A stretch of DNA of 46,830 nucleotides from Bacillota bacterium (GTDB lineage Bacteria; Bacillota; DSM-12270; Thermacetogeniales; Thermacetogeniaceae): positions 54,735 to 101,564 of the forward strand of contig JARYLU010000007.1 in assembly GCA_029907475.1 (NCBI GenBank). The letters are read 5' to 3'. How positions within the stretch are numbered: the stretch's first letter is position 1; every line of letters starts with the position of its first letter. Below are positions 22,900-45,987 of the stretch, piece by piece. A program made the translations under genes and the position numbers. A model generated the notes under the pieces. The model was given only the letters and a program-made list of their open reading frames with translations. It had not been told where the DNA came from and did no database searches.

Positions 22900-22936
22900 A
22901 AGGACTGCCTTGAGCGAGGACAGTCCTTCTTATTAC
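22900..22936 (-). terminator. Terminator of the 24781-22933 minus-strand operon
   Basis: A perfect 8-bp stem (AAGGACTG / CAGTCCTT) with 13-nt loop follows the 92-aa ORF; its first arm lies just past the stop at 22933. The U-tract is short (TTTATT). Confidence 0.6.
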
Positions 22937-23211: not shown

Positions 23212-23232
23212 TATCCCTGCACCCGCAACCGT

Positions 23233-23592: not shown

Positions 23593-23613
23593 AGCGATAC
23601 CCTCCTGTCCGAC

Positions 23614-23742
23614 TTAACCATTCGGCTTTTGTGTTATAATTTCCTTTCCAGCAAAAACTTGTATCGCGTTTTCTAAAAGTATTTGTCTGGCCTGTGCCTC
23701 TTTTTCTTGAGTTAGTTTCAGTGGTCTACCCTTCTTAACCAT
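23614..23742 (-). CDS. 42-aa basic peptide beginning KKGRPLKLT
   Basis: ATG 23742 lies 10 nt after the stop of the 272-aa gene, and the ORF runs to TAA at 23614. The N-terminal KKGRPLKLTQEKE resembles the RGRRPKIEDE segment at the start of the 272-aa protein, and the rest is one helix. An SD-like AAGGGG overlaps the preceding stop at rather long spacing. It may be a real small cotranscribed protein or a relic of the same family. Confidence 0.4.
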   Translation of the reverse strand: MVKKGRPLKLTQEKEAQARQILLENAIQVFAGKEIITQKPNG

Positions 23743-23752
23743 TTTGCAATAT

Positions 23753-24571: not shown

Positions 24572-24621
24572 GATACCCCTCCCAGGCCCATATATTTCCA
24601 ACCCGAGCTAGAAAGATAAAA

Positions 24622-24665
24622 AAACCGGCAGGCCGAAATTATATTACTTTCTTTCGGCGCCGGTT
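24622..24665 (-). terminator. Nested intrinsic terminator
   Basis: AACCGGC pairs with GCCGGTT and inside it GCCGAAA pairs with TTTCGGC. On the minus strand six U follow. It directly ends the 45-aa ORF whose stop lies in its loop. Confidence 0.75.
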
Positions 24666-24781
24666 ATATCATCACAAGGACATTTGCCAAAGGGGGATAC
24701 GCGGAGAGCAGTGTTGCCGCTCGTATATCTGTTATCGCTATTATTTTGATTTTTGAAGCTTTTGAAGCTATTATTACGCAT
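24644..24781 (-). CDS. 45-aa Asn/Ser-rich peptide with strong SD
   Basis: ATG 24781 is preceded by GGGGGAGGAG at good spacing. The product starts RNNSFKSFKNQNN, is polar, and has a CPC motif near the C-terminus (FGKCPCDDITG). The stop lies inside a terminator hairpin, so this looks like a compact monocistronic unit. No family is recognised. Confidence 0.5.
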   Translation of the reverse strand: MRNNSFKSFKNQNNSDNRYTSGNTALRVSPFGKCPCDDITGAERK

Positions 24782-24920
24782 TGTTCTCCTCCCCCTGAGT
24801 ATACGTTAAGAATTTCGCATTAAAACTTACTGGTTTTCTCCCGGTTTCTCCAGTTTCGACAGGTTTCAGTTGCAAGAAATGGTAAGATTATAAATGTCTT
24901 AAATTTACGAAACCTTTTTT

Positions 24921-25399: not shown

Positions 25400-25705
25400 A
25401 TGGATGTCGGGAAGCGAATTAAGGAATTGCGTGAATCATCAAGCTACAGCATTAATCAATTAGCCCGTTTGGCTGGCGTGGGGCAATCTACGCTTAGCTA
25501 CATCGAGATGGGCGCAAAAAACCCTACAGTTGATACTCTCCTACGGATTTGCAAGGCTTTAGGAATATCCCTTGCTGAGTTTTTTAGCGAAGGACAAATT
25601 GACATCCCCCCTGATCTCCGTCAACTTCTCCACGAAGCTGAGAGTTTAACACCTGAACAGCGGAAAAAATTGATCGACTTCATCAGGAGCATCAAAAAAA
25701 GTTGA
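25400..25705 (+). CDS. XRE family regulator, pair 1 plus
   Basis: This 101-aa protein has an N-terminal HTH (YSINQLARLAGVGQSTLSYIEMG) very similar to that of its divergent partner. A C-terminal tail (LTPEQRKKLIDFIRSIKK) is typical of SinR/ImmR-like repressors. GGGAG precedes the ATG. It is a likely master or accessory repressor of the element. Confidence 0.88.
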   Translation: MDVGKRIKELRESSSYSINQLARLAGVGQSTLSYIEMGAKNPTVDTLLRICKALGISLAEFFSEGQIDIPPDLRQLLHEAESLTPEQRKKLIDFIRSIKKS

Positions 25706-25712
25706 ATCTCTT

Positions 25713-25775
25713 TCTATGTGCCGGTTCTGCTTGATCAAATACACGTTGCTTCCAGCCTACCTACGAGGGATTAAA
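25713..25775. repeat. Degenerate copy of the 3' end of XRE gene 28123
   Basis: About 60 bp are roughly 80% identical to 28127-28187, the 3' coding end of the minus-strand XRE gene of pair 4. On the minus strand this copy still reads SLVGRLEAT before a stop. It marks a past duplication or deletion in the XRE array. Confidence 0.65.
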
Positions 25776-25883
25776 AACTGGATCGTACGGGCTAAGCTGC
25801 AGAGAGCGTAGGCGTGGGTATCGAGGGTCCGGGTAGAAGCTGTCGCCAACATGGTCGCTGTTGTCGGGGTTTGGCCTTCACGC

Positions 25884-25976
25884 TCAAATTCCCTCAAATT
25901 TTTCCAGGAAAAAATCCGCGTACCTCTCAAACACCCTGAATAAGATGCTCACGACTTTCTCTCGTACCTCGTTCAT
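25884..25976 (-). CDS. 30-aa amphipathic peptide with strong SD
   Basis: GGAGG lies 7 nt before ATG 25976 (a second ATG at 25979 is closer). The product NEVREKVVSILFRVFERYAD continues FFLEKFEGI, one amphipathic helix. Nothing else fills 25776-26030, a gap between pair 1 and the next gene. It could be a toxin-like or regulatory peptide; only the SD and helix pattern support it. Confidence 0.4.
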   Translation of the reverse strand: MNEVREKVVSILFRVFERYADFFLEKFEGI

Positions 25977-26030
25977 CATACCACCTCCAAAAAATTACTC
26001 TTAACCTTAGTGAAAGGGGGGTTTGCCTGA

Positions 26031-26222
26031 ATGACCGCCGATAAAAGATTCTGCCCGCTTGTAAACGGCGAATGCTCAGCCGACTGTGCCCTGCAGTTCT
26101 GTTTTCCAGATCGTCCTCCCGCCGTTTGCTTCTACCAGGCGCTTTTGATTCTCCTTTACGACATTAAAGAACACCTTGCCGAGTTAAAAACTGCATTAAA
26201 TAGGATGCAATGGAAAACCTAA
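26031..26222 (+). CDS. Small Cys-rich protein
   Basis: This 63-aa protein has CPLVNGECSADCALQFC at the N-terminus, a possible small metal site, and a helical C-terminus (DIKEHLAELKTALNRM). GGGGGG upstream serves as SD. Similar short CPL...C...DC proteins occur in Firmicute phages and plasmids. It is convergent with and abuts the XRE gene at 26223. Confidence 0.65.
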   Translation: MTADKRFCPLVNGECSADCALQFCFPDRPPAVCFYQALLILLYDIKEHLAELKTALNRMQWKT

Positions 26223-26456
26223 TCAGCGAGTGCAAGCAGAAGGTGGCTTGTTTTGGCTCTCTTCCTCCTCGGCCAGCAGTTCGCCGGCGGGGATTCCGAA
26301 GAACTTTTCCAGGCGCCGGGCTACTTCCCAGGAGGGGTTGCACTTGCAATTTTCAATGAATACTATAGCTGATTTGCTGATACCAACTTTTTGTGCAAGT
26401 TGTGCTGTTGAAAGTCCGGCTTCTTTTCTTGCCCGGATAAGTTTAAAACGTTTCAC
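26223..26456 (-). CDS. XRE family regulator, pair 2 minus
   Basis: This 77-aa HTH protein (LSTAQLAQKVGISKSAIVFIE) has a C-terminal PSWEVARRLEKFFGIPAGELL segment shared almost verbatim with the pair-3 minus gene. Its promoter (26499-26527) has a spacer exactly filled by a palindromic operator, so it is expected to be repressed by itself or its partner. Confidence 0.9.
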   Translation of the reverse strand: MKRFKLIRARKEAGLSTAQLAQKVGISKSAIVFIENCKCNPSWEVARRLEKFFGIPAGELLAEEEESQNKPPSACTR

Positions 26457-26469
26457 TTAGTTCGCCTCC

Positions 26470-26527
26470 GGTTAGCTGGGCTAACCGCTCCTGACTATAT
26501 TATATGGTTAGTGTTACTAACCGTCAA
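26470..26527. promoter_or_regulatory. Operators and minus promoter of XRE pair 2
   Basis: Two perfect palindromes share GGTTAG arms: GGTTAGC-3-GCTAACC (26470-26486) and GGTTAGT-3-ACTAACC (26506-26522). On the minus strand TTGACG (26522-26527) and TATAAT (26499-26504) are 17 nt apart, and the second palindrome covers the spacer. Confidence 0.85.
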
Positions 26528-26538
26528 GAGGGTTTTCT

Positions 26539-26769
26539 ATGCTAAACAGATCAATTTTTGCTGCAAGATTGGTATCACTACGAAAACAACGCCGTTTATC
26601 TACTCAAAAACTTGCTGATGCTTTAGGGCTGAAAAGCAAAGGCACCATTACCCAGTTTGAAAAAGGAATTACATCGCCATCTGTTGATACTCTTATCGCT
26701 CTCGCCGACTTCTTCGATGTCTCCCTCGACTACCTGGTGGGCCGCTCCGACGACCCCAGGCGGAGGTAG
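26539..26769 (+). CDS. XRE family regulator, pair 2 plus
   Basis: This 76-aa HTH protein (LSTQKLADALGLKSKGTITQFEKG) has C-terminal residues LIALADFFDVSLDYLVGRSD that are identical to those of the pair-3 plus gene. Their DNA is about 95% identical over 66 bp while the N-terminal halves differ. It precedes a coiled-coil gene by 16 bp. Confidence 0.9.
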   Translation: MLNRSIFAARLVSLRKQRRLSTQKLADALGLKSKGTITQFEKGITSPSVDTLIALADFFDVSLDYLVGRSDDPRRR

Positions 26770-26785
26770 AAAGGAGAATGATAGA

Positions 26786-27160
26786 ATGAACAATGATGAG
26801 AAAATTTTAAAAATGCTTGAATCGATCCAGAATCAATTACATGAACACACCAAGATATTGAACCAGCACTCTCACCTGTTAGATGAGCACACCCGACGGT
26901 TTGACAAGATCGAAATTCGGCAGTCCGAAGCGAATTCGAGGCTTGACGAACATACCCAAATACTTCGGGCACTGGAACACGCCAGTTCGGTCCACAAGGC
27001 CGACATCGACAACCTTACTCATGCTGTAGCCAGAATCGAAGGCGATGTAAAAGAGATCCGCAACTACCAGAACCGTCAGGGCAAAATTCTCGATCGCCTG
27101 GCCGTCCGCTCCATTGAGCAGGAAGCCGATATTCACGCCCTGAGGAGTATTGTAAAGTAA
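26786..27160 (+). CDS. Coiled-coil protein following XRE pair 2
   Basis: This 124-aa, entirely helical protein has heptads and repeated HEHTKILNQHSHLLDEHTRR / LDEHTQIL units. AAAGGAG before ATG 26786 fixes the start; the open frame upstream is an overlap with the XRE gene. It has the same length and position as the protein at 27745, so the pair XRE-coiled coil is a repeated module. Function is unknown. Confidence 0.8.
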   Translation: MNNDEKILKMLESIQNQLHEHTKILNQHSHLLDEHTRRFDKIEIRQSEANSRLDEHTQILRALEHASSVHKADIDNLTHAVARIEGDVKEIRNYQNRQGKILDRLAVRSIEQEADIHALRSIVK

Positions 27161-27167
27161 TCACATC

Positions 27168-27383
27168 CTACGCTGTTTTGCCGGGCTCCTCCCCGGATTC
27201 GGCCAGCAGTTCGCCGGCGGGGATGTTGAAGAGTTGTTCGAAACGTTGAGCTACAGCCCAAGAAGGGTCACTTTTACCGCGTTCTATGTCGCTATAATGC
27301 CGTTGACTTATGCCGATGAGTTTTGCTATCTCTGTTTGGCTATACTTTTTTTGCAAACGAAGGTTTCTAAGGTAGTTTCTCAT
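27168..27383 (-). CDS. XRE family regulator, pair 3 minus
   Basis: This 71-aa HTH protein (YSQTEIAKLIGISQRHYSDIERG) has C-terminal PSWAVAQRFEQLFNIPAGELL paralleling the pair-2 minus gene. It ends 7 bp from the coiled-coil gene at 27160, convergent. It is likely controlled by the TAGCGAT palindromes at 27398-27450. Confidence 0.9.
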   Translation of the reverse strand: MRNYLRNLRLQKKYSQTEIAKLIGISQRHYSDIERGKSDPSWAVAQRFEQLFNIPAGELLAESGEEPGKTA

Positions 27384-27397
27384 TTTACCGCCACCTT

Positions 27398-27450
27398 GTT
27401 AGCGATTACATCGCTAACATTAAGTAGATTATATAGCGATGAAATCGCTA
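27398..27450. promoter_or_regulatory. Two palindromic operators of XRE pair 3
   Basis: GTTAGCGAT-3-ATCGCTAAC (27398-27418) is a perfect 9-bp-arm palindrome. TAGCGAT-3-ATCGCTA (27434-27450) is a second. Both use a 3-nt spacer as in pair 2 but with a different arm sequence. Confidence 0.85.
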
Positions 27451-27489
27451 AGTCAATAGGTTTTTACAATTTTTTTCTGGAGTTGTTTT

Positions 27490-27708
27490 ATGGCCACTTT
27501 TCAGGAGCGTCTGCGTGAACTAAGAAAAACACGTAAACTTTCACAGACTAAGCTGGCTGCCGAAGTTGGTATAAGTCAAAGAGTGATTTCAGATTTTGAA
27601 AATGGTACCGGCTTGCCAAGCTTTAATGTACTCATCGCCCTCGCCGACTTCTTCGACGTTTCCCTCGACTACCTGGTGGGCCGCTCCGACGACCCCAGGC
27701 GGAAGTAA
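27490..27708 (+). CDS. XRE family regulator, pair 3 plus
   Basis: This 72-aa HTH protein (LSQTKLAAEVGISQRVISDFENG) shares its last third, protein and DNA, with the pair-2 plus gene. The AT-rich N-terminal coding half and the GC-rich C-terminal half differ in composition, suggesting a mosaic origin. Confidence 0.9.
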   Translation: MATFQERLRELRKTRKLSQTKLAAEVGISQRVISDFENGTGLPSFNVLIALADFFDVSLDYLVGRSDDPRRK

Positions 27709-27744
27709 GTCATATTGTCTTTCATGATAAGGAGAGAATGAATT

Positions 27745-28119
27745 ATGGAAAAGGTTTTAAATGAAATCCTGGGTAAACTCGATTCTCTTGAGCAAGGTCA
27801 TCGGCAACTAAGGCAAGAACTCAAAACAGACATAAAAACCATCAACGGCGAACTCGAATCCCTGAACAGGCGCATTGGCAATCTTGAAGAGAACCAGGTT
27901 AGACTCGAATCCAAAGTAGATAAACTGGAACTTCGCATCGAAAACGAAGTCATTGGCAAAATCCGTGCCCTCTTAAACGGTTATACCCTGCGTGGCGACC
28001 AGATCGAAAAGCTGCAAAAGCACCTTGACGAACGGCTGGACAGCATCGAAACAGATACTCGCTACCTCGTTGCCAGGGTCGCCATGCTGGAGAAGCTGGC
28101 GAATGAGAATTCACGTTGA
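27745..28119 (+). CDS. Coiled-coil protein following XRE pair 3
   Basis: This 124-aa helical protein has long heptad tracts (LESLNRRIGNLEENQVRLES). It has the same length as the protein at 26786 but little direct identity. AAGGAGAG precedes the ATG. It ends 3 bp from the convergent XRE gene at 28123. It may be a multimerising partner of the adjacent XRE repressor, which is inference from repeated linkage. Confidence 0.8.
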   Translation: MEKVLNEILGKLDSLEQGHRQLRQELKTDIKTINGELESLNRRIGNLEENQVRLESKVDKLELRIENEVIGKIRALLNGYTLRGDQIEKLQKHLDERLDSIETDTRYLVARVAMLEKLANENSR

Positions 28120-28122
28120 AAA

Positions 28123-28374
28123 TTATCTATATGTCGGTTCTGCTTGGTCAAGTAACGTTGTTTCCAGCCTACCTACGAGCGATTGAGACGCATAAAACTT
28201 GACCTTGATCCCAAGAACATTACAGGCTTTACTCATCGTTGTTTCATTCCAGCGTTTCTTTCCTGCCAATAAATCTGAAATGTATTGAGGGCTGTATCCC
28301 ATTTTCTTCGCTAAATTACTTGCATTGATATTTTGCAGGCCCATTAATTCTTTCACCGTTTGAGTAAAATTCAT
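28123..28374 (-). CDS. XRE family regulator, pair 4 minus
   Basis: This 83-aa HTH protein has INASNLAKKMGYSPQYISDLLAGKKRWNE. ATG 28374 follows AGGTGG; upstream GTG codons at 28386/28383 lie within the SD. Its 3' end is duplicated in degenerate form at 25713-25775. It is divergent to 28578. Confidence 0.87.
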   Translation of the reverse strand: MNFTQTVKELMGLQNINASNLAKKMGYSPQYISDLLAGKKRWNETTMSKACNVLGIKVKFYASQSLVGRLETTLLDQAEPTYR

Positions 28375-28401
28375 CTCTCCCACCACCTACTTTATTAAAT
28401 T

Positions 28402-28520
28402 TAGTCTATTTGATTAATTATGGCAAACCCTGTTTTCCCCTATTTGTTTAATTTATTTTCATTTTATAGGTAATTACTCCATTAGATTAACTTTTTCTTT
28501 AATTTTAATCTATTTGATGA
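28402..28520. promoter_or_regulatory. Repeated TCTATTTGAT boxes between XRE pair 4
   Basis: TAGTCTATTTGATTA (28402-28416) and TAATCTATTTGATGA (28506-28520) are direct repeats near the two divergent starts, with a further ATTAGATTAA between them. Each has AATC/GATT symmetry. They are candidate operators of pair 4. Confidence 0.5.
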
Positions 28521-30577: not shown

Positions 30578-31693
30578 GTGCCCAAAGTTATCGACTTATT
30601 CGCAGGCGCCGGGGGACTAAGCTTAGGCGCCATTCGAGCGGGATTCCGTGTTATCGGCGCCTTAGAACTCGATTCAATAGCTATAAGCACGCATAAGCTA
30701 AATTTTCCGAATACGAGACATCTGCAACTTGACATTTCGAAACTTTCAGGCAGAGATGTCCTCAATTACTTTAAAGTTAAGAAGGGCGAACTGTCAGGCA
30801 TTATAGGCGGACCCCCGTGCCAGGGCTTCAGTTCAATAGGGAGGCAAAAAGCTGATGACCCGAGAAATTTATTGTTTATTCACTTTTTTCGCTTAGTTAA
30901 AGAAATGAGTCCTAGCTTTTTTGTTGTCGAAAACGTTCCCGGAATCATGAACGCCAAGTTCACTGCAATAAGAGAAGAGGCATACAGTCTAATCGCAGGG
31001 AAATATAAAAAACTACCCCCTATGGTTATTAATACGCTCGACTATGGATTACCGACCTCAAGATCTAGAGTCATATTCATCGGGTATAAAAAAGGGAAAG
31101 TGGACCGATTAGAAGCGAAAGTATTCAAACCAAGCGGCGGCGTCAAGCCTCATTACGTTCAAGACGCCCTCGAGGGATTACCCGTGCAATTAGATTGCTT
31201 TGAACATCCGAAAAACGGTTCCAAGTACTGGTGTAAAATCGATAAACCTACACCCGGTAGTTATGCCGATATGATTTCCGTCAGTTGCCCCGAAGCCGGA
31301 AACGAAGAGGCTGTGTTTAGATATTTCGAACATTCCGAGGTAACAGGTATGATCGGGACAAAACATTCCCCGGAAGTTATCAGGCGCTATGAAAGTATAC
31401 CGCCGGGGGGAAAGGATTTTATCTCAAAATCCTACAGGTTACAGATGGACGGTTTCTGCCCGACGCTACGTGCGGGTACGGATAGAGAACACGGGTCATT
31501 TCAGGCTGTTCGACCTTTACACCCGATTGAAGCTCGTGTTATAACCCCCCGGGAGGCAGCGCGGCTACAGGGTTTCCCCGATTGGTTTCTTTTCCATAAT
31601 ACCAAATGGCATAGTTTTCGACAAATCGGTAACAGTGTCAGCCCTATATTAGCCGAGTATATTCTGCGATCAATCCGAGAGAAACTTAAATAG
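30578..31693 (+). CDS. C5-cytosine DNA methyltransferase (Dcm family)
   Basis: This 371-aa SAM-dependent enzyme has motif I VIDLFAGAGGLSLG, motif IV GGPPCQGFSS (catalytic Cys81), motif VI VVENVPG, motif VIII GLPTSRSRVIFIG and motif X GNSVSPILAEYI. The target specificity is not predictable. It starts at GTG 30578; an in-frame TAG just upstream rules out longer forms, and the SD is 13 nt away. It is the first gene of the AT-rich cassette 30578-34659, all plus strand with gaps of 29-47 bp. Confidence 0.95.
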   Translation: MPKVIDLFAGAGGLSLGAIRAGFRVIGALELDSIAISTHKLNFPNTRHLQLDISKLSGRDVLNYFKVKKGELSGIIGGPPCQGFSSIGRQKADDPRNLLFIHFFRLVKEMSPSFFVVENVPGIMNAKFTAIREEAYSLIAGKYKKLPPMVINTLDYGLPTSRSRVIFIGYKKGKVDRLEAKVFKPSGGVKPHYVQDALEGLPVQLDCFEHPKNGSKYWCKIDKPTPGSYADMISVSCPEAGNEEAVFRYFEHSEVTGMIGTKHSPEVIRRYESIPPGGKDFISKSYRLQMDGFCPTLRAGTDREHGSFQAVRPLHPIEARVITPREAARLQGFPDWFLFHNTKWHSFRQIGNSVSPILAEYILRSIREKLK

Positions 31694-31733
31694 AGACTAA
31701 TTAAAATTCTGTTTTGGAAGGGGTGTTCACTTT

Positions 31734-33134
31734 ATGGACGAAGGATCCAAAACAGTCAAAGCATATCCGACGAAGGCATTTTTCGTTAAGATGCTTACAA
31801 GAGATATTCCATTGGAAGACGCTATCTTGGACTTATTAGACAACTGCGTCGACGGAATCCTTAGAACCAAATGGAGTAATGGCATACCGCAAGGCATAGA
31901 GAATCCGTATGAGGGATATTACGCCGAAATTACCCTGGATAAATCAAAGTTCACCATAGTAGACAACTGCGGCGGAATCCCAAGAAATATCGCCGAAGAT
32001 TACGCGTTTCGAATGGGTAAAACCAATTTTCAGGATGAAAATTTGCCGACGGTTGGCGTTTATGGAATAGGGATGAAACGAGCCCTGTTTAAAATGGGGA
32101 GAAATAGCGAAATTCTATCGAAAACGGATACGGACTGTTTCAAAGTAAAAATAGATTCGGAGTGGTTGGAAAATGATGGTGAATGGGAACTGCCTCTAGA
32201 AGAGCTTGAATCGTGCGAACTTTCGGAAACCGGGACATCGATAAGCGTTACAAGCCTATATGAGCCGATCTCAGCTTGGTTTGACAATAAAGCTAATGTT
32301 GAAAAACTTAGAGAGATAATTCAGCATCATTATAGCATTATTATTTCCAAAGGATTTCGTGTTACAGTTAACGAAGTATCCATACATCCAGTTTCAACAA
32401 TGCTTCTTGCCGATGCGGATTTTGATAAAGAAGCACTAGCGCCATATGTATATACGGCCAATATTGACGGAGTGGATGTCCTTCTGGAAGTAGGGTTCTA
32501 TAGAGATAGGCCCGATATTGAAGAAGTAGAAGCAGAACAGAAATCGAGAAGATCCAAAGAAAACGCCGGATGGACAATCGTGTGTAATGATAGAGTCGTT
32601 GTTCACAAAGATAAGACGAGGCTTACCGGTTGGGGGGAGTATAACGTTCCCCACTACCATAGTCAATTTATCGCTATTGCCGGCTTTGTGATTTTCCAGA
32701 CTAACCACGCGGAAAAATTACCGGTAAATACCACGAAGAGAGGTTTAGACGCATCTTCGTTGCTTTATCTTCATGTTAAAGAACATATGAGACGAGGTCT
32801 TAAATTATTTACAGATTACACAAATACATGGAAAAAAGATCGTGTCAAGGAACGAGAGGTAACATCTAAAGCGATTCCTAAGGACTTATTTGAGATCAAA
32901 GAAGATATACCGAAGGACAAATGGAAGGAAGTCCCCGGTAGTAAGTATGCTGAAAAGGTTTTTAAACCAATATTGCCTAGGCCCCAGATAAAAAATCCGA
33001 GAAAACATATAGCCTTTTCAAGACCGGAAACAGAAATCCGAGCCGTATCAGAATTTCTATTTGGCGATCCCGGCATGCCGGCTGCAACGGTCGGCGAAGC
33101 ATGCTTCGAGAGAGTTCTAAACGAAATTAAGTAA
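31734..33134 (+). CDS. GHKL-family ATPase (HATPase, MORC/MutL-like) in the dcm cassette
   Basis: The 466-aa protein carries an N-terminal Bergerat ATP-binding fold: N-box LDLLDNCVDGI (Asp33/Asn37), DNCGG at 77-81 as the D-x-G-x-G equivalent, and VGVYGIGMKRAL (108-118) as the ATP lid glycines. A transducer-like middle part (ISVTSLYEP, then NDRVV and KLPVNTTKRG with a conserved Lys) and a variable C-terminus follow. It contains no nuclease motif. GHKL ATPases of MORC/MutL type have been predicted in prokaryotic restriction-modification loci, where they would couple ATP to DNA clamping or restriction. AAGGGGTG precedes the ATG. Confidence 0.88.
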   Translation: MDEGSKTVKAYPTKAFFVKMLTRDIPLEDAILDLLDNCVDGILRTKWSNGIPQGIENPYEGYYAEITLDKSKFTIVDNCGGIPRNIAEDYAFRMGKTNFQDENLPTVGVYGIGMKRALFKMGRNSEILSKTDTDCFKVKIDSEWLENDGEWELPLEELESCELSETGTSISVTSLYEPISAWFDNKANVEKLREIIQHHYSIIISKGFRVTVNEVSIHPVSTMLLADADFDKEALAPYVYTANIDGVDVLLEVGFYRDRPDIEEVEAEQKSRRSKENAGWTIVCNDRVVVHKDKTRLTGWGEYNVPHYHSQFIAIAGFVIFQTNHAEKLPVNTTKRGLDASSLLYLHVKEHMRRGLKLFTDYTNTWKKDRVKEREVTSKAIPKDLFEIKEDIPKDKWKEVPGSKYAEKVFKPILPRPQIKNPRKHIAFSRPETEIRAVSEFLFGDPGMPAATVGEACFERVLNEIK

Positions 33135-33163
33135 CGGAGGATGTTGTTTGGAGGATATTGATT

Positions 33164-34156
33164 ATGAGCGGAGGCTGGCTACCTTATCATCTACGTAGGA
33201 ATAAGGCTATAGATAGGGCGATCTTTATCGAATTCCTTTCTAGACTGAACGCCATAAGACCTATAAATAGCTACGGATACATCGGATTTGGAGCTGTTCG
33301 GATGGAGGATTTCAAACTTGTCCACTCTCTTTTCGATATTAAAAATATGATATGTATCGAAAAGGACGAGGCTGTTCATTCTCGTCAGAAATTCAATGCG
33401 CCATTTAACTGTATCAAACTGGAACTAATATCTTCAGGAGATTTTATTACGAACTTTGTTTCTGACATGAACTACATAATTTGGCTTGATTATTCAAGTC
33501 CGAAGGAAATCGGTCAGCAGATCAACGAAATACGGGAACTCCTACCTAAATTGAGGGAATATGACGTTCTAAAAGTGACTCTTAATGCTAACCCCTATAC
33601 CTTATGCAAAGAGTGGAAATATAAAGGGGATATTAAAGCATTGCATGAAAAAAGGTTAAACAAACTAATTGAAAGATTAAATATCGACTATTTTCCACAA
33701 GAAGTTGACCCGTTTATGATGAACGAAAAGGGTTACCCGCGCGTCCTACTGAATATACTCGAACTTACATGCCTTGACGGACTCGCGTATACGGAACATC
33801 GATTTCAACCTGTTTTATCATTCGTTTATAAGGACGCGGCGCACCAAATGCTAACCTTGACCGGGATTGTCGTAAGGAGGAAGATATCCCAGGAAGAGTG
33901 TTTATCGCAACTGAATCTTAATAACTGGAGCTTTGCTAATCTATCCTGGAACGAATATCGGATCATTGACATTCCCGATCTCACATTAAAAGAGCGGCTC
34001 CTGATTGACTCTTTATTGCCGTGTGAGGATTTGGATGAGGTTCTTAAGAACGTACCGGTACAGTTCAATGAAATCGAAGAGAAATCGCTTGAACAAATAC
34101 GTAACTACATCAAATACTATAGGCACTACCCTTTCTTTTCAAAAATATCAATATGA
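33164..34156 (+). CDS. Unknown protein of the dcm/GHKL/Vsr cassette, possibly Rossmann-like
   Basis: This 330-aa protein is not recognised. The segment YGYIGFGAVRMEDF followed by MICIEKDE and, later, YIIWLDYSSP resembles the glycine loop, acidic strand-2 end and strand 4 of a class I methyltransferase-like Rossmann fold. That is inference from pattern only. It is charged and has no transmembrane segment. GGAGG 10 nt before ATG 33164 sets the start. Its fixed place between GHKL ATPase and Vsr argues for a role in the same system. Confidence 0.75.
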   Translation: MSGGWLPYHLRRNKAIDRAIFIEFLSRLNAIRPINSYGYIGFGAVRMEDFKLVHSLFDIKNMICIEKDEAVHSRQKFNAPFNCIKLELISSGDFITNFVSDMNYIIWLDYSSPKEIGQQINEIRELLPKLREYDVLKVTLNANPYTLCKEWKYKGDIKALHEKRLNKLIERLNIDYFPQEVDPFMMNEKGYPRVLLNILELTCLDGLAYTEHRFQPVLSFVYKDAAHQMLTLTGIVVRRKISQEECLSQLNLNNWSFANLSWNEYRIIDIPDLTLKERLLIDSLLPCEDLDEVLKNVPVQFNEIEEKSLEQIRNYIKYYRHYPFFSKISI

Positions 34157-34203
34157 GAACGAATAAATCCCTCATTTCTTGATAAATTCGGAGGTATTTT
34201 GTT

Positions 34204-34659
34204 TTGACAGACGTATTTGATGCGGCAAAGAGATCGGAAATAATGTCAAAAATTCATTCGAAAAACACTAAACCGGAAATAGCCCTGCGTAAAGCACTTT
34301 ATCATGCAGGTTTAAGAGGGTACCGGATATATTATAAACTCCCGGGTAAACCCGATATGGCTTATATAAAAGCTAAAGTAGCTATATTCGTCGACGGATG
34401 TTTCTGGCACGGATGTCCCGTGTGCAATAGGTATAGGACTAATGAAAAAGACGAGTTTTGGCGAAATAAAATCGCCAGAAACAAGGAACGAGACAAACAG
34501 ATTGACGCAAAGCTTACTGAATTAGGGTGGACTGTTATTCGAATCTGGGAGCACGACATTAAAAAGCACCTTGAAGACTGTGTTAGAAGGATTAGGAAAG
34601 CAGTCGAGGATAAACTATATCGTCGAAACGAAAATCATAATGATACAAGTTTTAAATAG
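34204..34659 (+). CDS. vsr: Vsr-like mismatch/restriction endonuclease
   Basis: This 151-aa very-short-patch-repair fold nuclease has LPGKPDMAYI with Asp51 and DGCFWHGCPVC with His69, numbering as in E. coli Vsr. The positions of Thr63 and His64 are Val and Asp here. RNKIARNKERDKQIDAKLTE and WTVIRIWEHDI complete the fold. Vsr normally nicks T:G mismatches arising at Dcm sites. In this four-gene set it may instead be the restriction nuclease. It starts at TTG 34204, 9 nt after GGAGG. Confidence 0.92.
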   Translation: MTDVFDAAKRSEIMSKIHSKNTKPEIALRKALYHAGLRGYRIYYKLPGKPDMAYIKAKVAIFVDGCFWHGCPVCNRYRTNEKDEFWRNKIARNKERDKQIDAKLTELGWTVIRIWEHDIKKHLEDCVRRIRKAVEDKLYRRNENHNDTSFK

Positions 34660-37126: not shown

Positions 37127-37861
37127 CTACGTCACTGGGCGCAGCGAAACAGCGTAAAGGCCCTTATCGAGGTGGCGGTACTTGGCTTCCACGGTCCTCC
37201 CGACAGAGGCTGCCAGCGTCTTGCCCGCACCGTTCTTGGCATAAAGGGCAACCTTCCCCTCCGGACCTTCGACGTATGCCCGGATGGTTCCGTCGCTCTT
37301 GCCGGGGCGGGCCTCCAGGACCTTGAAAACGCCGGTTTCCAAGTCATCCCCGCCGGAAGGGGCAGGTGTCTCCGGAGCTGCCGGTTTAGCCGGTGCTTCG
37401 GCGTGGCTGTCATGTTCGACAGTTTTGCCGGTGCCCTCGGCGTAGGCAGTCAAAACGGCCTCTGCGTCCTCCTTCAACCCGGCTCCCAGCAGGCTCGCCA
37501 CCAGGTAAGCGACATTGCTGTCGCTCCGGTGGCGGCGCCCGACCTGCTCGATCTCGGCATCGAGCTCTTTAAGCTCGGCCCGGCGCAGGTCGGCCTCGGC
37601 CCGGGTAAAGGTATAACCCGGGTCGGCCGCCAGCCGGCGGGCGATCTCGGCCTGCCGCGCCTGCTCGTTCGGGAAGGCGGGCTTGCCGTCGCCGTTCTTT
37701 TCGGCGGCCACAGCACCGGCAACCTGAACCTCCCGGTCTTTCATGGAGTCCAGGCTTTTGTGCAGCGCGTCGGAGACTTCGGCGCGCCTTTTGACCAGCC
37801 CGCCACTCAAAGTTGGAATCTCTCCCAAACGCTTCGCAATGTCTACCAAAACCTCACGCAT
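37127..37861 (-). CDS. Hypothetical 244-aa element protein
   Basis: The N-terminal two thirds are helical and charged (AEADLRRAELKELDAEIEQV). A Pro/Ala linker (AEAPAKPAAPETPAPSG) leads to a small C-terminal beta domain (GVFKVLEARPGKSDGTIRAY). No family is recognised. ATG 37861 is chosen: it follows leader 3, and the upstream GTG/TTG codons at 37906-37909 lie too close to the SD AAGGAGG. Confidence 0.65.
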   Translation of the reverse strand: MREVLVDIAKRLGEIPTLSGGLVKRRAEVSDALHKSLDSMKDREVQVAGAVAAEKNGDGKPAFPNEQARQAEIARRLAADPGYTFTRAEADLRRAELKELDAEIEQVGRRHRSDSNVAYLVASLLGAGLKEDAEAVLTAYAEGTGKTVEHDSHAEAPAKPAAPETPAPSGGDDLETGVFKVLEARPGKSDGTIRAYVEGPEGKVALYAKNGAGKTLAASVGRTVEAKYRHLDKGLYAVSLRPVT

Positions 37862-37953
37862 CTTAAACGGTACTTGCGGGCCCCCGGCGGCCCGCTTTCC
37901 CAACACCTCCTTAGAGATTTTTGGGATTTTGCGGGCCTGATTCCGGGAGGCCC
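37862..37953 (-). promoter_or_regulatory. Leader 3: hairpin, SD, hairpin, AUG
   Basis: SD GGAGG (37906-37910) is followed by a hairpin GCGGGCC/GGCCCGC (37876-37882 with 37889-37895) before ATG 37861, and preceded by GGGCC/GGCCC (37933-37937 with 37949-37953). It has the same order as leaders 1 and 2, though spacing is looser. Confidence 0.6.
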
Positions 37954-38124
37954 AGAAATTACACTACTTCTTTCTCGAAACCCCAGTCCAAAAAGAGAGC
38001 GATACGCTCCTCCTCGTTCCACCACCGGCGCCCCGCGTGAGGTGGACAAGAAAGAGTTGAAATGTGGGATTACCACCAACCCGGTCATAAGCAAACCCAT
38101 AATAAGAGGTTGCTTAATAACATA

Positions 38125-38417
38125 AAAAACCCGTCGAAGAGATACCTCTTTTACGGGTTTTCTCGCATAAGTTTAGGTTAATTACACTCAGCCACCGTGT
38201 CCGGTGGGTTGGTCCGGTTTGTCGCTTGCGTTATACTTGCGTAATAAGCAAGCCGGAGGACAATTTCTCGCGCCCCGGTGGGGCGACCTGCCGCATCTGC
38301 CGGGCGGCAGGAATGGGATCGCGCCCATTACGTTAAGGTTCCTCAGCGTCTGTTGGGCTGAGGATGCGTCTGCAACTGTTGGGCAGACATAAAACATGTG
38401 TAGAGGAGAACAATGCA
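38125..38417 (-). ncRNA. Structured non-coding RNA of about 290 nt, unknown class
   Basis: A consensus promoter (38423-38451) and an intrinsic terminator (38126-38161) bound a region with six stable hairpins: GTCTGC/GCAGAC (38368-38388), CCTCAGC/GCTGAGG (38341-38363), CCTGCCGC/GCGGCAGG (38287-38311), CGCCCC/GGGGCG (38271-38285), GCTTGC/GCAAGC (38224-38253) and CCACC/GGTGG (38192-38207). The first two present the same octamer CCCAACAG, 26 nt apart. No SD-led ORF occupies this strand. It does not match 6S RNA, tmRNA, RNase P or SRP RNA as I know them. Confidence 0.7.
38126..38161 (-). terminator. Intrinsic terminator of the structured RNA
   Basis: AAACCCGT pairs with ACGGGTTT, with an inner AAGAG/CTCTT stem. 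Six U follow on the minus strand. On the plus strand only four T follow. 37954-38124 beyond it has no supported gene. Confidence 0.8.
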
Positions 38418-38422
38418 ATTAA

Positions 38423-38451
38423 AATATACCTCATTAACTATATTTTGTCAA
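38423..38451 (-). promoter_or_regulatory. Consensus promoter of the structured RNA
   Basis: On the minus strand TTGACA (38446-38451), exactly 17 nt, TATATT (38423-38428). It overlaps the end of the wHTH gene at 38434. Confidence 0.85.
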
Positions 38452-38928
38452 CGCCTCGCGCAAACTCTTTTTTCTTAGAGAGTCTGTGATGACTAATATG
38501 CTTCCGGCAGGCAGATCCCGGGGCTTTTTCATATCGCCCGGAAGGATGGCTATGAAAACCCCTTTTTCGCCCCCGGTTTTACCTCGCCAGGCGGTTCTGT
38601 AACGGGCGCCGTTGGGAAAAATAACATCCGGAAACGTTCCGACCTGCCACCTGCATCCCGCCTGCACCGCACGGGCATACAGCCATCCCAGCGCCACCCG
38701 CCGGCGAAAAGACTCCTCGGTCTTGGGCGCCGGCGTGCCGGCAGCCAGGATCAGCCTGGTTCCACCCGTCTCGGAAATTTTTACAAGCCCTCTTGACAGG
38801 AGTCTCCGTATCACCTTCCTCGCAGCCGGTCCGAAAAGCACGCCGAGCGCCGGCATAGTCATGCCGTCGCTTGCCCGGAGGTGGCCTAAAACCTCTCTTT
38901 GCCGTTCCGAAAGCACGATGTTCGACAT
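38434..38928 (-). CDS. Winged-helix protein, replication-relaxation-like
   Basis: This 164-aa protein has an N-terminal wHTH (LSERQREVLGHLRASDGMTM, VIRRLLSRGLVKISETGGTR) and a C-terminal alpha/beta region (GCRWQVGTFPDVIF). That combination resembles MobC/replication-relaxation proteins of mobile elements; the assignment is moderate. Its ATG overlaps the preceding stop (TAATG), so it is coupled to the S1-domain gene. Confidence 0.65.
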   Translation of the reverse strand: MSNIVLSERQREVLGHLRASDGMTMPALGVLFGPAARKVIRRLLSRGLVKISETGGTRLILAAGTPAPKTEESFRRRVALGWLYARAVQAGCRWQVGTFPDVIFPNGARYRTAWRGKTGGEKGVFIAILPGDMKKPRDLPAGSILVITDSLRKKSLREALTKYS

Positions 38929-39779
38929 TAATAGCGCCTCCCCACAAGCTCCAGTCTGAGCAGGTGTTCCGCCCTGTCAAACTTCTTGACAATGCAATTT
39001 ACATTGCTGCCCCGGCGGCAACCGTAGCGAGGGGGATAAGGAGCTATACCCAAAACGCCCGGCGGAACCTCCACAAAAACATGCTTTCTAAGCCTCCCTT
39101 TCGAGTCAGTGATGTCGCGCAACGCCCGCACCGTGCCGGCTACGAAATCGCCGCGGCGAAAATCCGCTTTCTCCCAGGGATCGGGAAGAGCGTCCCTGAC
39201 CGAAACATCTATAATCCCCTGCTGGGGAGCAGTCCGCACCACTTTAGCTTTGACAGGCTGCCCGGGCACAAATTGGACAGATAGAGGCAAGGTCGTCGAG
39301 TAAGTAGCGCGGTTAGCAGGTACCTCGACCAGGACCCCTCCCCCGACGTCGAGGAGCAATCGGGGCGGTCTATCATTGTTGCGAGGCAGAACCGCACGAA
39401 CAACGCAGTCGATAATCTCCCCTTCTTTGATGTGCTCAAATACCGCTGCCTGCGCCTCTGACACGGCCTCGCCCCGGGAGCAGGCAACCATGCCGTCCTC
39501 TTTTCTAATTCCTTTGACTTTCACCCTTATGATTTGGCCAGCAAACCTTTGCATGAGGCTTTTATCTGCCAGGCCGGATTCGGAAGCCGGTATAAGTCCA
39601 CGGATCCCGGCGCCATTCACGGCAGGAAATATAACTTCCCAAACGGGAGAAACTCCGTCCGGCCAAGTGACGCGCGTGACGTACGCCTCCATTGTCCGAC
39701 CCCGTTCATAAGCATCGTGAATTACCTCCCACGGATCGGCCGCCGCAACATATCCTTCGGGTTTAATCACAGAAGTCAT
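38928..39779 (-). CDS. S1-type OB-fold RNA-binding protein
   Basis: This 283-aa protein has several OB/S1-like segments: RTMEAYVTRVTW...IRGLIPASES, KEGEIIDCVVRAVL, and RGDFVAGTVRAL...KHVFVEVPPGVLGIAPYP. The arrangement resembles three S1 repeats as in ribosomal protein S1, but divergent. GAGGAGG precedes the ATG. Located between a membrane hydrolase, a coupling protein and a wHTH gene, it probably acts in nucleic-acid handling of the element. Confidence 0.75.
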   Translation of the reverse strand: MTSVIKPEGYVAAADPWEVIHDAYERGRTMEAYVTRVTWPDGVSPVWEVIFPAVNGAGIRGLIPASESGLADKSLMQRFAGQIIRVKVKGIRKEDGMVACSRGEAVSEAQAAVFEHIKEGEIIDCVVRAVLPRNNDRPPRLLLDVGGGVLVEVPANRATYSTTLPLSVQFVPGQPVKAKVVRTAPQQGIIDVSVRDALPDPWEKADFRRGDFVAGTVRALRDITDSKGRLRKHVFVEVPPGVLGIAPYPPRYGCRRGSNVNCIVKKFDRAEHLLRLELVGRRY

Positions 39780-39815: not shown

Positions 39816-40310
39816 CTAGAGGACCCTGTAGAGCGCAAGCAATAGCGCCCCCGTTATAGGCAGCTCAAAAACACTGCCTGTACGCAGGGGGCCGCGAATA
39901 GAAATTGCTAAAACAGGCGAAAAGGGTTCGACGCCGGAGCGCGTCAAACCGTCAAGCAAAAGATGGGACATCGCCCCAAGGACCGCTGTGCAAAACCATA
40001 CCCAGGTTGGAGCGGAATAAATAATTTGCCCGAACGAACAATGAAACATCCTGCCCGCAAAACCCGCTAAAATACCGAGGCCGAGACAAAACCATACCGT
40101 ATGGGTTATCGTCCTATGCCCCGCGGCAACTTCAAGCAGCACCGACGCCGGTCTCAACCGCCGGCCGATAATACTGCCGGGATGGTCTATATCGGGAAGC
40201 AGCGCGGCCAGCGCCCCGAGAGCCGCGGCCCCGCCGGCCGGAACACCCGTGCAGTGTCCGACGAGCGCCCCCGCCAAGGCGCCCGCTGCGGCGTGCGTGT
40301 AACCCCTCAT
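39816..40310 (-). CDS. Membrane-bound metal-dependent hydrolase, YdjM/DUF457-like
   Basis: This 164-aa protein has the family motifs LLPDIDHPGSIIGRR, GHRTITHTVWF and MSHLLLDGLT, whose His/Asp residues bind metal, between membrane helices. Members are common on chromosomes and phages; the substrate is unknown. Its start overlaps the coupling-protein stop (ATGA), so it is cotranslated. Confidence 0.88.
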   Translation of the reverse strand: MRGYTHAAAGALAGALVGHCTGVPAGGAAALGALAALLPDIDHPGSIIGRRLRPASVLLEVAAGHRTITHTVWFCLGLGILAGFAGRMFHCSFGQIIYSAPTWVWFCTAVLGAMSHLLLDGLTRSGVEPFSPVLAISIRGPLRTGSVFELPITGALLLALYRVL

Positions 40311-42406
40311 CCTTCTCCCGCCCTTCGGAACAAATCTTCCACCATTTCCGCCGCGTCGAAATCGCCTGCAACAGTAGTCTCTTTTCCGCCCCGTTCAAAC
40401 GAGCGGTTCCTCTTCTTCTGCTCGATGGGCGCTCCTTCAGGCAGGGGCGGGATCTGTACCTCCGCCGCCCGCTGCGGCACGACCTCCGCGAGCGTCTCTA
40501 CCGCCGTTCCCCGGATTTCCCGCGCCTGGGGAAGGTCTTTCATCCAGTCGATCTTTCTGAGATAAAGCGGAAGCGTCCACCTGACCAGGGCCACCGCCGC
40601 GAGCGGGTCCATGCCGGAGAGCTCTTCAGGTTCCATAAGGGGCCTTCGGACAACGGTTTCGGTCCGCTTCGGCATCTCGACGCGGTTCCAGGGCAGCGTG
40701 ACGTTCTTCCTCTCGGTCTCGGCATACACCGCCGCCTCTCCCAGGCGAGACGAAAAGTACCGGGTGGTCGTGGCGTCGTCCCCGCCCAGAAAGAGCTGGA
40801 TGGGGCAGTTCGCCATGATGTTCTCGGCGTCGGCCGCCCCGTAGTTGTCCTGCAGCTGCTTCAGCCCCTGCAGCACGAACTGGATTTTTATTCCGAGGCT
40901 CCGGGCGGTGGAGATGACCTCCCTGAACCCCGGCACCTGCCCGATATTCGCGAACTCGTCGAGCAAAAAGCGCGTCGAATTCGGGAGCTTTCCCCCATTC
41001 TCCGCGGCAAGCCCGTAGAGGCGCCTGAAAAAGAAATAGTAAAACGCCGCCAGCACGGGCCGCAAATGCCCCGCACCGACGGGGATAACGCAGAAAAGGG
41101 CGGCCTTCCCCCGCCCTATTGCGGAGAGATCTATTTCGTGCCGGGAAAGGAGCTGCGCCACGGATGCCGTCCGCGCCACGTTCAGCTTGGCCGAAAGACC
41201 GCTTACGGCGTTGTCGTAGTTGCTCGAGACCGCGCCGCGCCATTCTTCGTAGCCTTCAAGCCGCAGGCTGCCCGTTTTATACGCTTTTTCGAACCGTTCA
41301 TTCAGCACCTCCGCCGGCCAGGAGAGGAGGCTGAGCGCAGAGCGGAGGTGGGTCTGCTCCTCCGGGAAATCGGCGCGGAGCAGGTAGACTAACGCTTTCA
41401 GAAGCTGGATTTCCTTCATCATGAAGTACCCGGACCTGTCGGCCACCGCGTTCTGCACGATTGCAGTTGCAAAAGCGGTGATTTCCTCGTCGTCCCGGCA
41501 TTCCAGAACCGGGTTCCAGCAGTTCCCCCACTCCGGCTGCATGAGGTTGAACACGAACACTTCGTAACCCCTTGACCTGAGCCAGGGGGACAGCAGGCAG
41601 GCGAGTTCCCCTTTCGGGTCGGTGAGCACCAAGCTCTCTCCCTCCACTGCCGCCGCGACCGCGTTCGGAACCACAAAGGAGTAGCTTTTTCCCCCGCCCG
41701 TGCCTGCGATCACGGCAGCGTGTTGAGGGAGCGGGGGAATACATTTATCCGGATAAAGGCGAACGATTCTCCCGTCCAGCTTTCCGATAACCGTGCCCCC
41801 GCCAAACCCTCCCTCTTCTCCTTCTTTTGGAGGGCCGAAATTCGCCACGTGAACCAGGTCCGCGTCTCCGGCCCAGCGCCGCGTTCCCTTTGCGGCGTTT
41901 TCCGCGACCGGCAGGCCGTGAACCCGCCTGGCGCTGTGCTCTCTGCCGCCTCTTCCTCCGGCGTAAAAGGACAGCAGGAGACCCACAGCGCCACCCAGCA
42001 CCAGGCCAAGCCTCCCGGCCCGGTTTGCGGGGTTGTGCAGTTTGCGGCCGGAAAGCCAGGACTGCCACACTACCGGGGGAGCCTGGCGTTCTATGAAGCG
42101 GTGCTCCTGAAGGTCGAGCTTCGGTAAAGACTGTAAGAAGTTTACGGTGTAGGCGAAAGTTACGGCAAAAAGAAAAGCGCAGACCGGCACCAGCAAGACA
42201 GCAGCGTGCTTTCCCCTGCTCCGGTCGAAAACGAGACCGGCTAAAAGTAAAAGCGTAAGAAAACCGGGAACAGGCCAGAGATAGGCGAGAGCAACAATGC
42301 ATACAGCTGCTGCGCCCAGTAAAATAACCGCCTTCTTCTCTTGAAGGCAATCGCGTATCCGCGAAAAATCCGATTTTCCAATGCCCTGAAATACTCTCAA
42401 AGTCAT
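40307..42406 (-). CDS. VirD4/TraG-type type IV coupling protein
   Basis: This 699-aa ATPase links the relaxosome to the conjugation channel. N-terminal hydrophobic segments (about 25-90 and 133-150) anchor it. Walker A GTGGGKS lies near 235-241, LVLTDPKGEL follows, and FLLDEFANIGQVPGF holds Walker B, with FVLQGLKQLQDNYG and NCPIQLFLGG downstream, all VirD4 signatures. GGGAGG precedes ATG 42406. This is the strongest evidence that the element is conjugative or mobilisable. Confidence 0.95.
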   Translation of the reverse strand: MTLRVFQGIGKSDFSRIRDCLQEKKAVILLGAAAVCIVALAYLWPVPGFLTLLLLAGLVFDRSRGKHAAVLLVPVCAFLFAVTFAYTVNFLQSLPKLDLQEHRFIERQAPPVVWQSWLSGRKLHNPANRAGRLGLVLGGAVGLLLSFYAGGRGGREHSARRVHGLPVAENAAKGTRRWAGDADLVHVANFGPPKEGEEGGFGGGTVIGKLDGRIVRLYPDKCIPPLPQHAAVIAGTGGGKSYSFVVPNAVAAAVEGESLVLTDPKGELACLLSPWLRSRGYEVFVFNLMQPEWGNCWNPVLECRDDEEITAFATAIVQNAVADRSGYFMMKEIQLLKALVYLLRADFPEEQTHLRSALSLLSWPAEVLNERFEKAYKTGSLRLEGYEEWRGAVSSNYDNAVSGLSAKLNVARTASVAQLLSRHEIDLSAIGRGKAALFCVIPVGAGHLRPVLAAFYYFFFRRLYGLAAENGGKLPNSTRFLLDEFANIGQVPGFREVISTARSLGIKIQFVLQGLKQLQDNYGAADAENIMANCPIQLFLGGDDATTTRYFSSRLGEAAVYAETERKNVTLPWNRVEMPKRTETVVRRPLMEPEELSGMDPLAAVALVRWTLPLYLRKIDWMKDLPQAREIRGTAVETLAEVVPQRAAEVQIPPLPEGAPIEQKKRNRSFERGGKETTVAGDFDAAEMVEDLFRRAGEG

Positions 42407-42579: not shown

Positions 42580-43437
42580 TCAGCTTAAATAAAGATCAGC
42601 GTATTTATCTTCTCGATCAACCCCCGTCTTTTTTACTTTTTTTGCTTCATTGAGGTATAAATCGGCGTACTTTTCTTCCAGATCCTTTTGCTTCAGGGGT
42701 TTCACCCCGCCTGTGCCGTAACTCTTTCGCACTGCATTAATAAACAGGCCTTCAAGGCTGTCAACTTTTACGGGTTTCTTTAAGTACTTGATCGCCGATG
42801 TTACCGCCTTATTTATTTTAACGGGATCGCCGCCGCCCTCAAGGAGCAATAATTTCGCAAACCAGAAGGGAAATTCGTAACCATTTGATTCGGCGTGCTT
42901 AATTACCTGTTCAACTTCCTCATCCTTACAGACAACAGACAAATTTTCGGGCTCGTGACCGGGGGGATCGCCTGTACCTTGATCGCACTTAGTTTCTTGT
43001 TGTATGTATGTATGATTATTATTAGTTAGATCATTATTTAGTAGTGTCGGGTTTCCCGGATACGGGTTTCCCGTATCCGGATTTTCCGGAAATGGGTTTT
43101 CTTTGCCTGTATTTGCCGGGCGTTCATAAATTATATATTCATACCCGAGAATCTTCCCCTTGTCATCTCGAATCTTTTTACGTTCGAGGTAACCCTGTAC
43201 TTCTAATTCCTTAAGTCCCGCGTAAACTGCATCACGACCGTCTGTTGACTGGTTGATAAGATCTTTAACGTAGATTTTCCAATCATCCGGTTTGCTCAGG
43301 AGGTAGGATAATAAACCCTTTGCTTTCCAGCTCAGCTTTACGTTGCTCAAAAATGCCTTATCAATAACTGCATAGGGATTTTTTCTTTTCCTCGTTCTGA
43401 TGATCTGGCAGTCCTTCCCTTTTTCACATGAACTCAT
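42580..43437 (-). CDS. Replication-initiator-like helix-turn-helix protein
   Basis: This 285-aa protein begins with the conserved region NPYAVIDKAFLSNVKLSWKA and KGLLSYLLSKPDDWKIYVKDL found in replication/HTH proteins of Firmicute phages and plasmids (DnaD/RepA-N style). A repetitive Asn/Pro linker (NPFPENPDTGNPYPGNP) follows. The C-terminal part is DnaD-like in spirit, with the motif KYADLYL occurring twice. AAAGGGGAG precedes the ATG. It probably starts replication of the excised element. Confidence 0.75.
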   Translation of the reverse strand: MSSCEKGKDCQIIRTRKRKNPYAVIDKAFLSNVKLSWKAKGLLSYLLSKPDDWKIYVKDLINQSTDGRDAVYAGLKELEVQGYLERKKIRDDKGKILGYEYIIYERPANTGKENPFPENPDTGNPYPGNPTLLNNDLTNNNHTYIQQETKCDQGTGDPPGHEPENLSVVCKDEEVEQVIKHAESNGYEFPFWFAKLLLLEGGGDPVKINKAVTSAIKYLKKPVKVDSLEGLFINAVRKSYGTGGVKPLKQKDLEEKYADLYLNEAKKVKKTGVDREDKYADLYLS

Positions 43438-45397: not shown

Positions 45398-45577
45398 GAG
45401 ACACCTCCGTTAGTGATTTAAGAGATAGGTGAAACACTTTGGTTACACCGTCTCAGTGTTTAACCCCCTGAGCTAGGTACTGTAACTCCTCCGCCTTTTG
45501 CTTCGCTCATGCCTTCCCTCTTGGTTACACCCGGGTATTGCCGGCTCCTTGAGGTGTGTCCGAACGGACGCACCCGG

Positions 45578-45616
45578 CCGGTTTCCCGGCTGCAGGCAAT
45601 CTTGCCGGGAAACCGG
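45578..45616. repeat. Perfect 13-bp stem hairpin
   Basis: CCGGTTTCCCGGC (45578-45590) and its exact complement (45604-45616) flank a 13-nt loop. No U-tract follows on either side, so it is not an obvious terminator. Confidence 0.75.
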
Positions 45617-45650
45617 CAATTTACCTGGTCCCGGCGGCGGCCAGGTCAAG

Positions 45651-45704
45651 GTGTAACCAAATGGATACACCTTCCCGCTCTTTGGTGTATCCATTTGGTT
45701 ACAC
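45651..45704. repeat. 21-bp perfect inverted repeat with 12-bp spacer
   Basis: Arms 45651-45671 and 45684-45704 are exact reverse complements beginning GTGTAACCAAATGG. Each arm is itself partly palindromic (GTGTA ... TACAC). The TTGGTTACAC core also occurs singly at 45439-45448 and 45521-45530, giving iteron-like spacing. Confidence 0.85.
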
Positions 45705-45987
45705 TTTAGAGGCCCTGCGGGGCCTTGGGCCCGGCGGTGCCCGGGCGAAACCCGGTTACCCGGCGGAGGAACGTCCGGAGCAGGTAAGTACTGGGAAGGG
45801 TTTGGTCAAGGCACTCTATGGAATATAAGGGGAATACCTCTAACCCTTGCTGCCATGCGCCGTCCGGCGGCGGATTAGCGCGGTTTATTAAAATGTTTAG
45901 GCCAGGGGGTAGCCGGGACCCGGAGCGGGAGCGGAGGGGGATAGCCTGGATCACATCCCACCAAAAAACAAGAACCCGTGAAAAGAA

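Follow-up and report, generated by a model that had tools for sequence, protein, structure and literature searches.

The window analysed here, a stretch of 46,830 nucleotides, carries host genes in its left part and an inserted element that apparently extends from ~20.9 kb to the window end, where the contig ends as well. The insertion combines a large serine integrase (20885-22612, minus strand), which is the last gene of a minus-strand array, with a T4SS coupling protein (40307-42406, minus strand) and a replication initiator (42580-43437, minus strand), and the occurrence of all three on one insertion identifies it as an integrative conjugative element. It also harbors a regulator cluster, a methylase and Vsr-like cluster, and a D12-class adenine methylase. 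The cluster at 30578-34659 on the plus strand comprises a type II cytosine methylase, a Methyltransf_35 protein, a Vsr-like nuclease and an ORF without a PADLOC match, and looks like cargo of the element for modification or defence. Within the integrase array, two neighbouring proteins (22933-24601, minus strand) share a domain with the pattern HKLTISDYxLVQxCxxAYEFxPGxWNxxTGKY.

The feature under study is part of the minus-strand series within the transfer region and directly follows a two-gene unit. The first gene of this unit (38928-39779, minus strand) encodes an S1-domain (ribosomal protein S1-like) protein, for which the best NCBIfam match (E 9.5e-14) falls below the family cut-offs and the Pfam S1 match is likewise below cut-off. 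The second (38434-38928, minus strand) encodes a 164-aa protein of unknown function, and its 3′ end contains the -35 hexamer of the RNA described below. Being encoded within a conjugative element, this S1-domain protein may act as an RNA chaperone.

The promoter TTGACA-17-TATATT and the intrinsic terminator with six U that the earlier note had placed on the minus strand are both present. The -35 hexamer TTGACA (38446-38451) and the -10 hexamer TATATT (38423-38428), separated by a 17-nt spacer, match 11 of the 12 consensus bases over 38451..38423. The promoter sequence alone is weak evidence, since one promoter-type site was observed in the region and 0.6 would be expected in shuffled sequence. 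The terminator (38124-38161, minus strand) consists of a stem, AAAACCCGU/ACGGGUUUU, that encloses an inner hairpin and is followed by six U at 38129-38124; it was absent from the list returned by a simple terminator scan, presumably because of the inner stem. Based on promoter, terminator, fold and a full-length homologue, the predicted non-coding RNA spans 38124-38421 (minus strand) and measures ~295-298 nt. No ORF led by a Shine-Dalgarno (SD) sequence was found across 38124-38451 on the minus strand, as had been reported. A small protein encoded at the locus was set aside: the 76-codon frame starting with TTG (38188-38418, minus strand) lacks an SD sequence, and the homologue shows many indels.

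The minus strand of 38125-38451 folds with a predicted free energy of -114.2 kcal/mol (z = -5.65), and none of 100 shuffled sequences was as stable. The stability claimed previously is therefore borne out, whereas the count of six hairpins is too low, as seven precede the terminator, all on the minus strand: H1a (GUCUGC-(CCAACAGUU)-GCAGAC, 38368-38388), H1b (CCUCAGC-(CCAACAGAC)-GCUGAGG, 38341-38363), H2 (AAUGGG-CGCGAU-CCCAUU, 38312-38329), H3 (CCUGCCGC/GCGGCAGG, 38287-38311), H4 (CGCCCC/GGGGCG, 38271-38285), H5 (GUCC..GCUUGC/GCAAGC..GGAC, 38212-38261) and H6 (CCACCG/CGGUGG, 38192-38207). In addition, a closing helix, with its start at the predicted 5′ end of the RNA, pairs UUAAUUGCAUU (38412-38422) with GAGUGUAAUUAA (38178-38189). 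The adjacent H1 hairpins carry two identical copies of the octamer CCCAACAG at 26-nt spacing, exactly as the earlier note had seen; the copies of GCCCAACAGNNGC within the RNA are also 26 bases apart. A dispersed hairpin of the REP type was rejected, as GCCCAACAGNNGC occurs only three times in the genome and two of these occurrences are inside the RNA. The GCCCAAC/GTTGGGC sequence bears a likeness to integron attC.

A sequence search of the source genome and 60 relatives revealed two related loci. A full-length homologue (L005:5400-5690; BLAST E 2.6e-8) is present in G009, a genome of another genus of the same family that corresponds to the public record CALGIY010000188.1 (uncultured Thermoanaerobacteraceae), where it lies between a transposase gene and the genes of an excisionase and a tyrosine integrase, near a tRNA-Lys. 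This homologue has a stable fold of its own (z = -3.6) and a single H1-type hairpin, in contrast to H1a and H1b of the window RNA. The H1 loop and H2 are invariant between the two sequences, so that H2 is unchanged across two genera. H3 shows two compensatory changes and one one-sided change, none of which breaks a pair (38 of 38 cells paired), and its pairing drops from 100% to 32-50% in a control in which the partners were slid against each other. One more compensatory change, from C-G to U-A, was found in H5. At the positions of H4, H6 and the terminator, the homologue has counterparts of different sequence: CUCC/GGAG in H4, CCCUGUU/AACAGGG in H6, and a changed terminator stem that still pairs, in a terminator of the same design. 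The covariation check suggested earlier thus yielded compensatory changes in H3 and H5, but the comparison comprises two sequences, a number at which the shuffle control is powerless, and these changes amount to support, short of proof, for a conserved fold.

The second relative (L004:855-985, minus strand) is truncated and resides in G002, a genome of the same genus, at a place unrelated to the setting of the window RNA. It retains the double CCCAACAG hairpin at 51 of 52 nt, with H1a identical and one difference in the loop of H1b, while the flanks have diverged. A -10-like region, GAAGTATATTTAAG, is found upstream, and the short RNA has its own terminator after the double hairpin. The loop of this terminator holds the sense sequence GAGGAGAACAATGC, the complement of the 5′ segment of the window RNA; the antisense sequence itself is absent. 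Hence, the H1 hairpins are kept in all three genomes and H2 in the source genome and G009, but not the 5′ segment.

Taken together, the promoter-like sequence, the terminator, the stable fold, the homologue that keeps this fold and the truncated double-hairpin relative indicate that the feature is very probably a structured non-coding RNA gene of ~295 nt on an integrated conjugative element. The earlier proposal of a self-standing structured RNA thus gains from the compensatory changes and same-place terminator of the homologue and from a third genome, in which the CCCAACAG hairpins are extremely well conserved. The RNA could not be assigned to a known class, in agreement with the earlier note: none of the Rfam 15 covariance models was matched at its gathering threshold, relaxing the limit to E 5 brought up nothing beyond chance-level matches, and a known RNA class or riboswitch was therefore rejected. 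Three overlapping sets of genomes (149, 398 and 398) were searched with a covariance model built on the core, and no credible further copy was detected; matches at E 0.006-0.4 lacked the conserved hairpins, resembled coding or unrelated sequence and were discarded. BLAST searches of phage and plasmid collections returned nothing above chance level, and pattern scans of viral contigs gave only chance matches, several within coding sequence. Scanning genome contigs for the pattern GTAATGGG-N6-CCCATT-NN-TG produced more than 100 loci, among which the known homologue in CALGIY010000188.1 alone was real. When homologues of the flanking genes were used to locate more copies, two weak ones were obtained, neither with the RNA nearby. 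The family is real yet rare, and it seems to be bound to mobile elements.

The earlier note had also suggested that the repeated octamer might titrate a protein or pair with a target. Protein titration through the CCCAACAG loops is possible. The idea of target pairing found a moderate lead, not at the octamer hairpins, however, but in the 5′ segment of the RNA. This segment, GCAUUGUUCUCCUC (38403-38416, minus strand), is the exact complement of window positions 24778-24791, where the minus strand reads GGGGGAGGAGAACAATGC, comprising the SD sequence GAGGAG (24786-24791) and the start codon of a 45-codon ORF (MRNNSFKSFKNQNNSDNRYTSG..., 24644-24781, minus strand). The ORF heads the minus-strand array whose last gene is the serine integrase. 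Flanked by one G-U pair on either side, the 14-nt exact match forms an uninterrupted duplex of 16 bp (-27.5 kcal/mol). Perfect copies of the 14-mer in the 3-Mb genome are limited to the RNA itself and the 24781 SD/start, and no copy with one mismatch was found in the whole genome. When dinucleotide-shuffled versions of the RNA were compared with 255 SD-led starts of the window, a match of at least 14 nt arose in 9 of 2000 trials, and random 303-nt pieces of the window gave an equally long match in 21 of 1000 (~2%), a figure that repeats in the window may inflate. A chance origin of the antisense match is thus only moderately excluded (0.5-2%), and the match is a lead, not proof.

In the predicted fold of the RNA, the CCUC end of the segment is largely unpaired and UUCUC has an exposure of about one half or higher that varies with the start site assumed, while GCAUU is held within the closing helix; in the predicted fold of the target mRNA, the GAACA core is open. 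Ranking of targets by hybridisation energy alone did not discriminate among them. Only one genome shows the antisense segment. It is missing from the G009 homologue, and a comparison of the G009 genome with the reverse complement of the homologue's 5′ region pointed to no clear translation start. No homologue of the 45-codon ORF was obtained at a significant E-value, and the promoter scan returned no clear promoter on its strand. A terminator-like hairpin (24618-24665, minus strand) overlaps the 3′ end of the ORF and is a possible attenuator. The arrangement at 24618-24781 (minus strand), a short ORF with a strong SD sequence whose stop lies inside a terminator-like hairpin, resembles a leader-peptide attenuator.

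The explanation that best accommodates these observations overall, put forward tentatively and with somewhat less than even confidence, is an element-encoded regulatory RNA composed of an antisense 5′ segment and a conserved hairpin body. Transcribed from its own promoter, as the sequence suggests, the RNA would fold into the multi-hairpin body, and the toehold CUCCUC within GCAUUGUUCUCCUC is predicted to pair with the SD sequence and start codon of the 45-codon ORF. The duplex would keep ribosomes from entering at the ORF that opens the integrase gene array, and the overlapping terminator might, speculatively, pass the effect on to the rest of the array, so that integration and excision would be tied to expression of the transfer region. 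Such an antisense mechanism at the start of the 24781 ORF is a slightly less secure proposal than the regulatory RNA as a whole. The conserved hairpins (the CCCAACAG loops, H2 and H5) may stabilise the RNA or offer a binding site for a protein; the neighbouring S1-domain protein, encoded upstream, is a candidate RNA-binding partner. That the double hairpin and H2 are so extremely conserved suggests a second, sequence-specific role, with protein binding as the simplest option.

The main rival to the antisense reading is that protein binding represents the whole function: the CCCAACAG hairpins, H2 and H5 would bind, titrate or organise a protein, possibly an element product such as the S1-domain protein or else a host protein, and the 5′ complementarity would be incidental. 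This is possible but rather doubtful. It accords with the pattern of conservation, which favours the H1 hairpins and H2 over the 5′ segment, with the placement of the duplicated octamer in loops, where it is ~80-100% unpaired apart from its first base, and with the S1-like protein gene located two genes upstream of the RNA. There is also a precedent in sgm-sRNA of SGI1, which is required for transfer and is seemingly not a classical regulator (PMC9299015). However, no S1-like gene was detected by tblastn of the window ORFs on the short contigs of the homologues, and the rest of the genome shows no enrichment of the CCCAACAG octamer. A broader proposal, in which the RNA represents a new family restricted to the mobile elements of one bacterial family, with an interchangeable 5′ antisense segment, a conserved protein-binding body (CCCAACAG hairpins, H2 and H5), a dedicated S1-domain partner encoded by the element and a link between the transfer region and the integrase gene array, is quite unlikely in its entirety.

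A role at the DNA level and a role as a leader or attenuator are both less likely than antisense or protein-binding action. In the former, the hairpins would function as single-stranded DNA, whether as oriT, as single-strand origin or as recombination site, with an incidental promoter and terminator. The locus does lie in the region of the T4SS coupling protein and replication initiator of a conjugative element, the shared 14-mer forms an inverted repeat with its copies 13.6 kb apart, and the G009 copy adjoins the excisionase and integrase genes. Nevertheless, the terminator of the homologue is in the same place with a stem that has changed yet still pairs, the 14-bp repeat coincides exactly with an SD sequence plus ATG, and the recombinase at 20885-22612 is of the large serine integrase type and not mainly an invertase, which makes this reading very unlikely. 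There is equally little reason to expect that the RNA is a long 5′ leader or attenuator of a gene starting near 37861 (minus strand), with the 38124-38161 hairpin as a conditional terminator: the next likely gene start on the same strand is ~264 nt past the terminator, but the RNA precedes the excisionase and integrase genes in G009 and lies in an unrelated place in G002, so no downstream gene is constant, and no known riboswitch was matched. In a further reading, just as improbable, the 14-mer is left over from an ancestral helix (GCATTGTTCTCCTC ... GAGGAGAACAATGC) that closed off the double hairpin; its 5′ strand would survive in the window and its 3′ strand in G002, and the match to the 24781 start would be due to chance. 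G002 indeed has GAGGAGAACAATGC 3′ of the double hairpin without a 5′ partner, but both strands occur together in none of the genomes seen, and the match to the 24781 start would need a separate coincidence.

If the antisense reading is right, the closest comparison is with FinP/FinO of F-like plasmids, where an element-encoded RNA also controls a conjugative element. FinP is short, is encoded opposite its target and acts by occlusion of the ribosome binding site. The window RNA is similarly complementary to an SD sequence and start codon on the same element, a complementarity seen in one genome only, but it is ~295 nt long and encoded 13.6 kb from its putative target instead of opposite it. 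FinP represses traJ together with the RNA-binding protein FinO (PMC9299015), and none of the adjacent proteins tested was a FinO homologue. Reports of regulatory RNAs from conjugative elements are rare, and FinP, Anti-Q, RteR and sgm-sRNA have been discussed together (PMC9299015). RteR is a small RNA of the Bacteroides integrative conjugative element CTnDOT and targets the tra operon (PMC9299015); it resembles the window RNA in being a small RNA of such an element and differs in its phylum and its target. The sgm-sRNA of Salmonella Genomic Island 1, likened here by description, is a processing product of the 3′ end of a longer mRNA (PMC9299015), whereas the window RNA is framed by a promoter and a terminator; the two share an origin in the transfer region of an integrated element and a possible protein-binding, non-classical function. 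The RNA would work in a FinP-like manner only if the antisense idea holds, and otherwise perhaps in a manner similar to sgm-sRNA.

Type III toxin-antitoxin RNAs of the ToxI type, in which several tandem repeats precede a terminator and a toxin gene of the ToxN/CptN/TenpN type, also combine a promoter, direct repeats and a terminator, but the window RNA has only two 26-nt repeats and no recognisable toxin adjacent to it, and this class was set aside; the products of 37127-37906 and 38434-38928 had no toxin match in Pfam, and none was found among the adjacent proteins with NCBIfam and PADLOC. Titration of the CsrB/RsmZ type, marked by multiple GGA motifs in hairpin loops, was set aside as well: instead of GGA, the sequence is CCAACAG in the duplicated loops and CGCGAU in H2. 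The RNA founds a new family within a kind already known, and no sequence or arrangement was found that makes it a member of the FinP, Anti-Q, RteR or sgm-sRNA groups. It offers a testable prediction in the 16-bp duplex over one SD sequence and start codon, and the conserved double hairpin can serve as a handle for a protein partner.

Elsewhere in the element, a duplicated control region surrounds the HTH regulator genes at 25700-28510, with duplicated blocks of 122 nt at 80%, 70 nt at 77% and 30 nt at 93%. Near-perfect inverted repeats (AAGGTGTAACCAAATGGATACACC and its partners) are located at 45427-45707, near the contig end.
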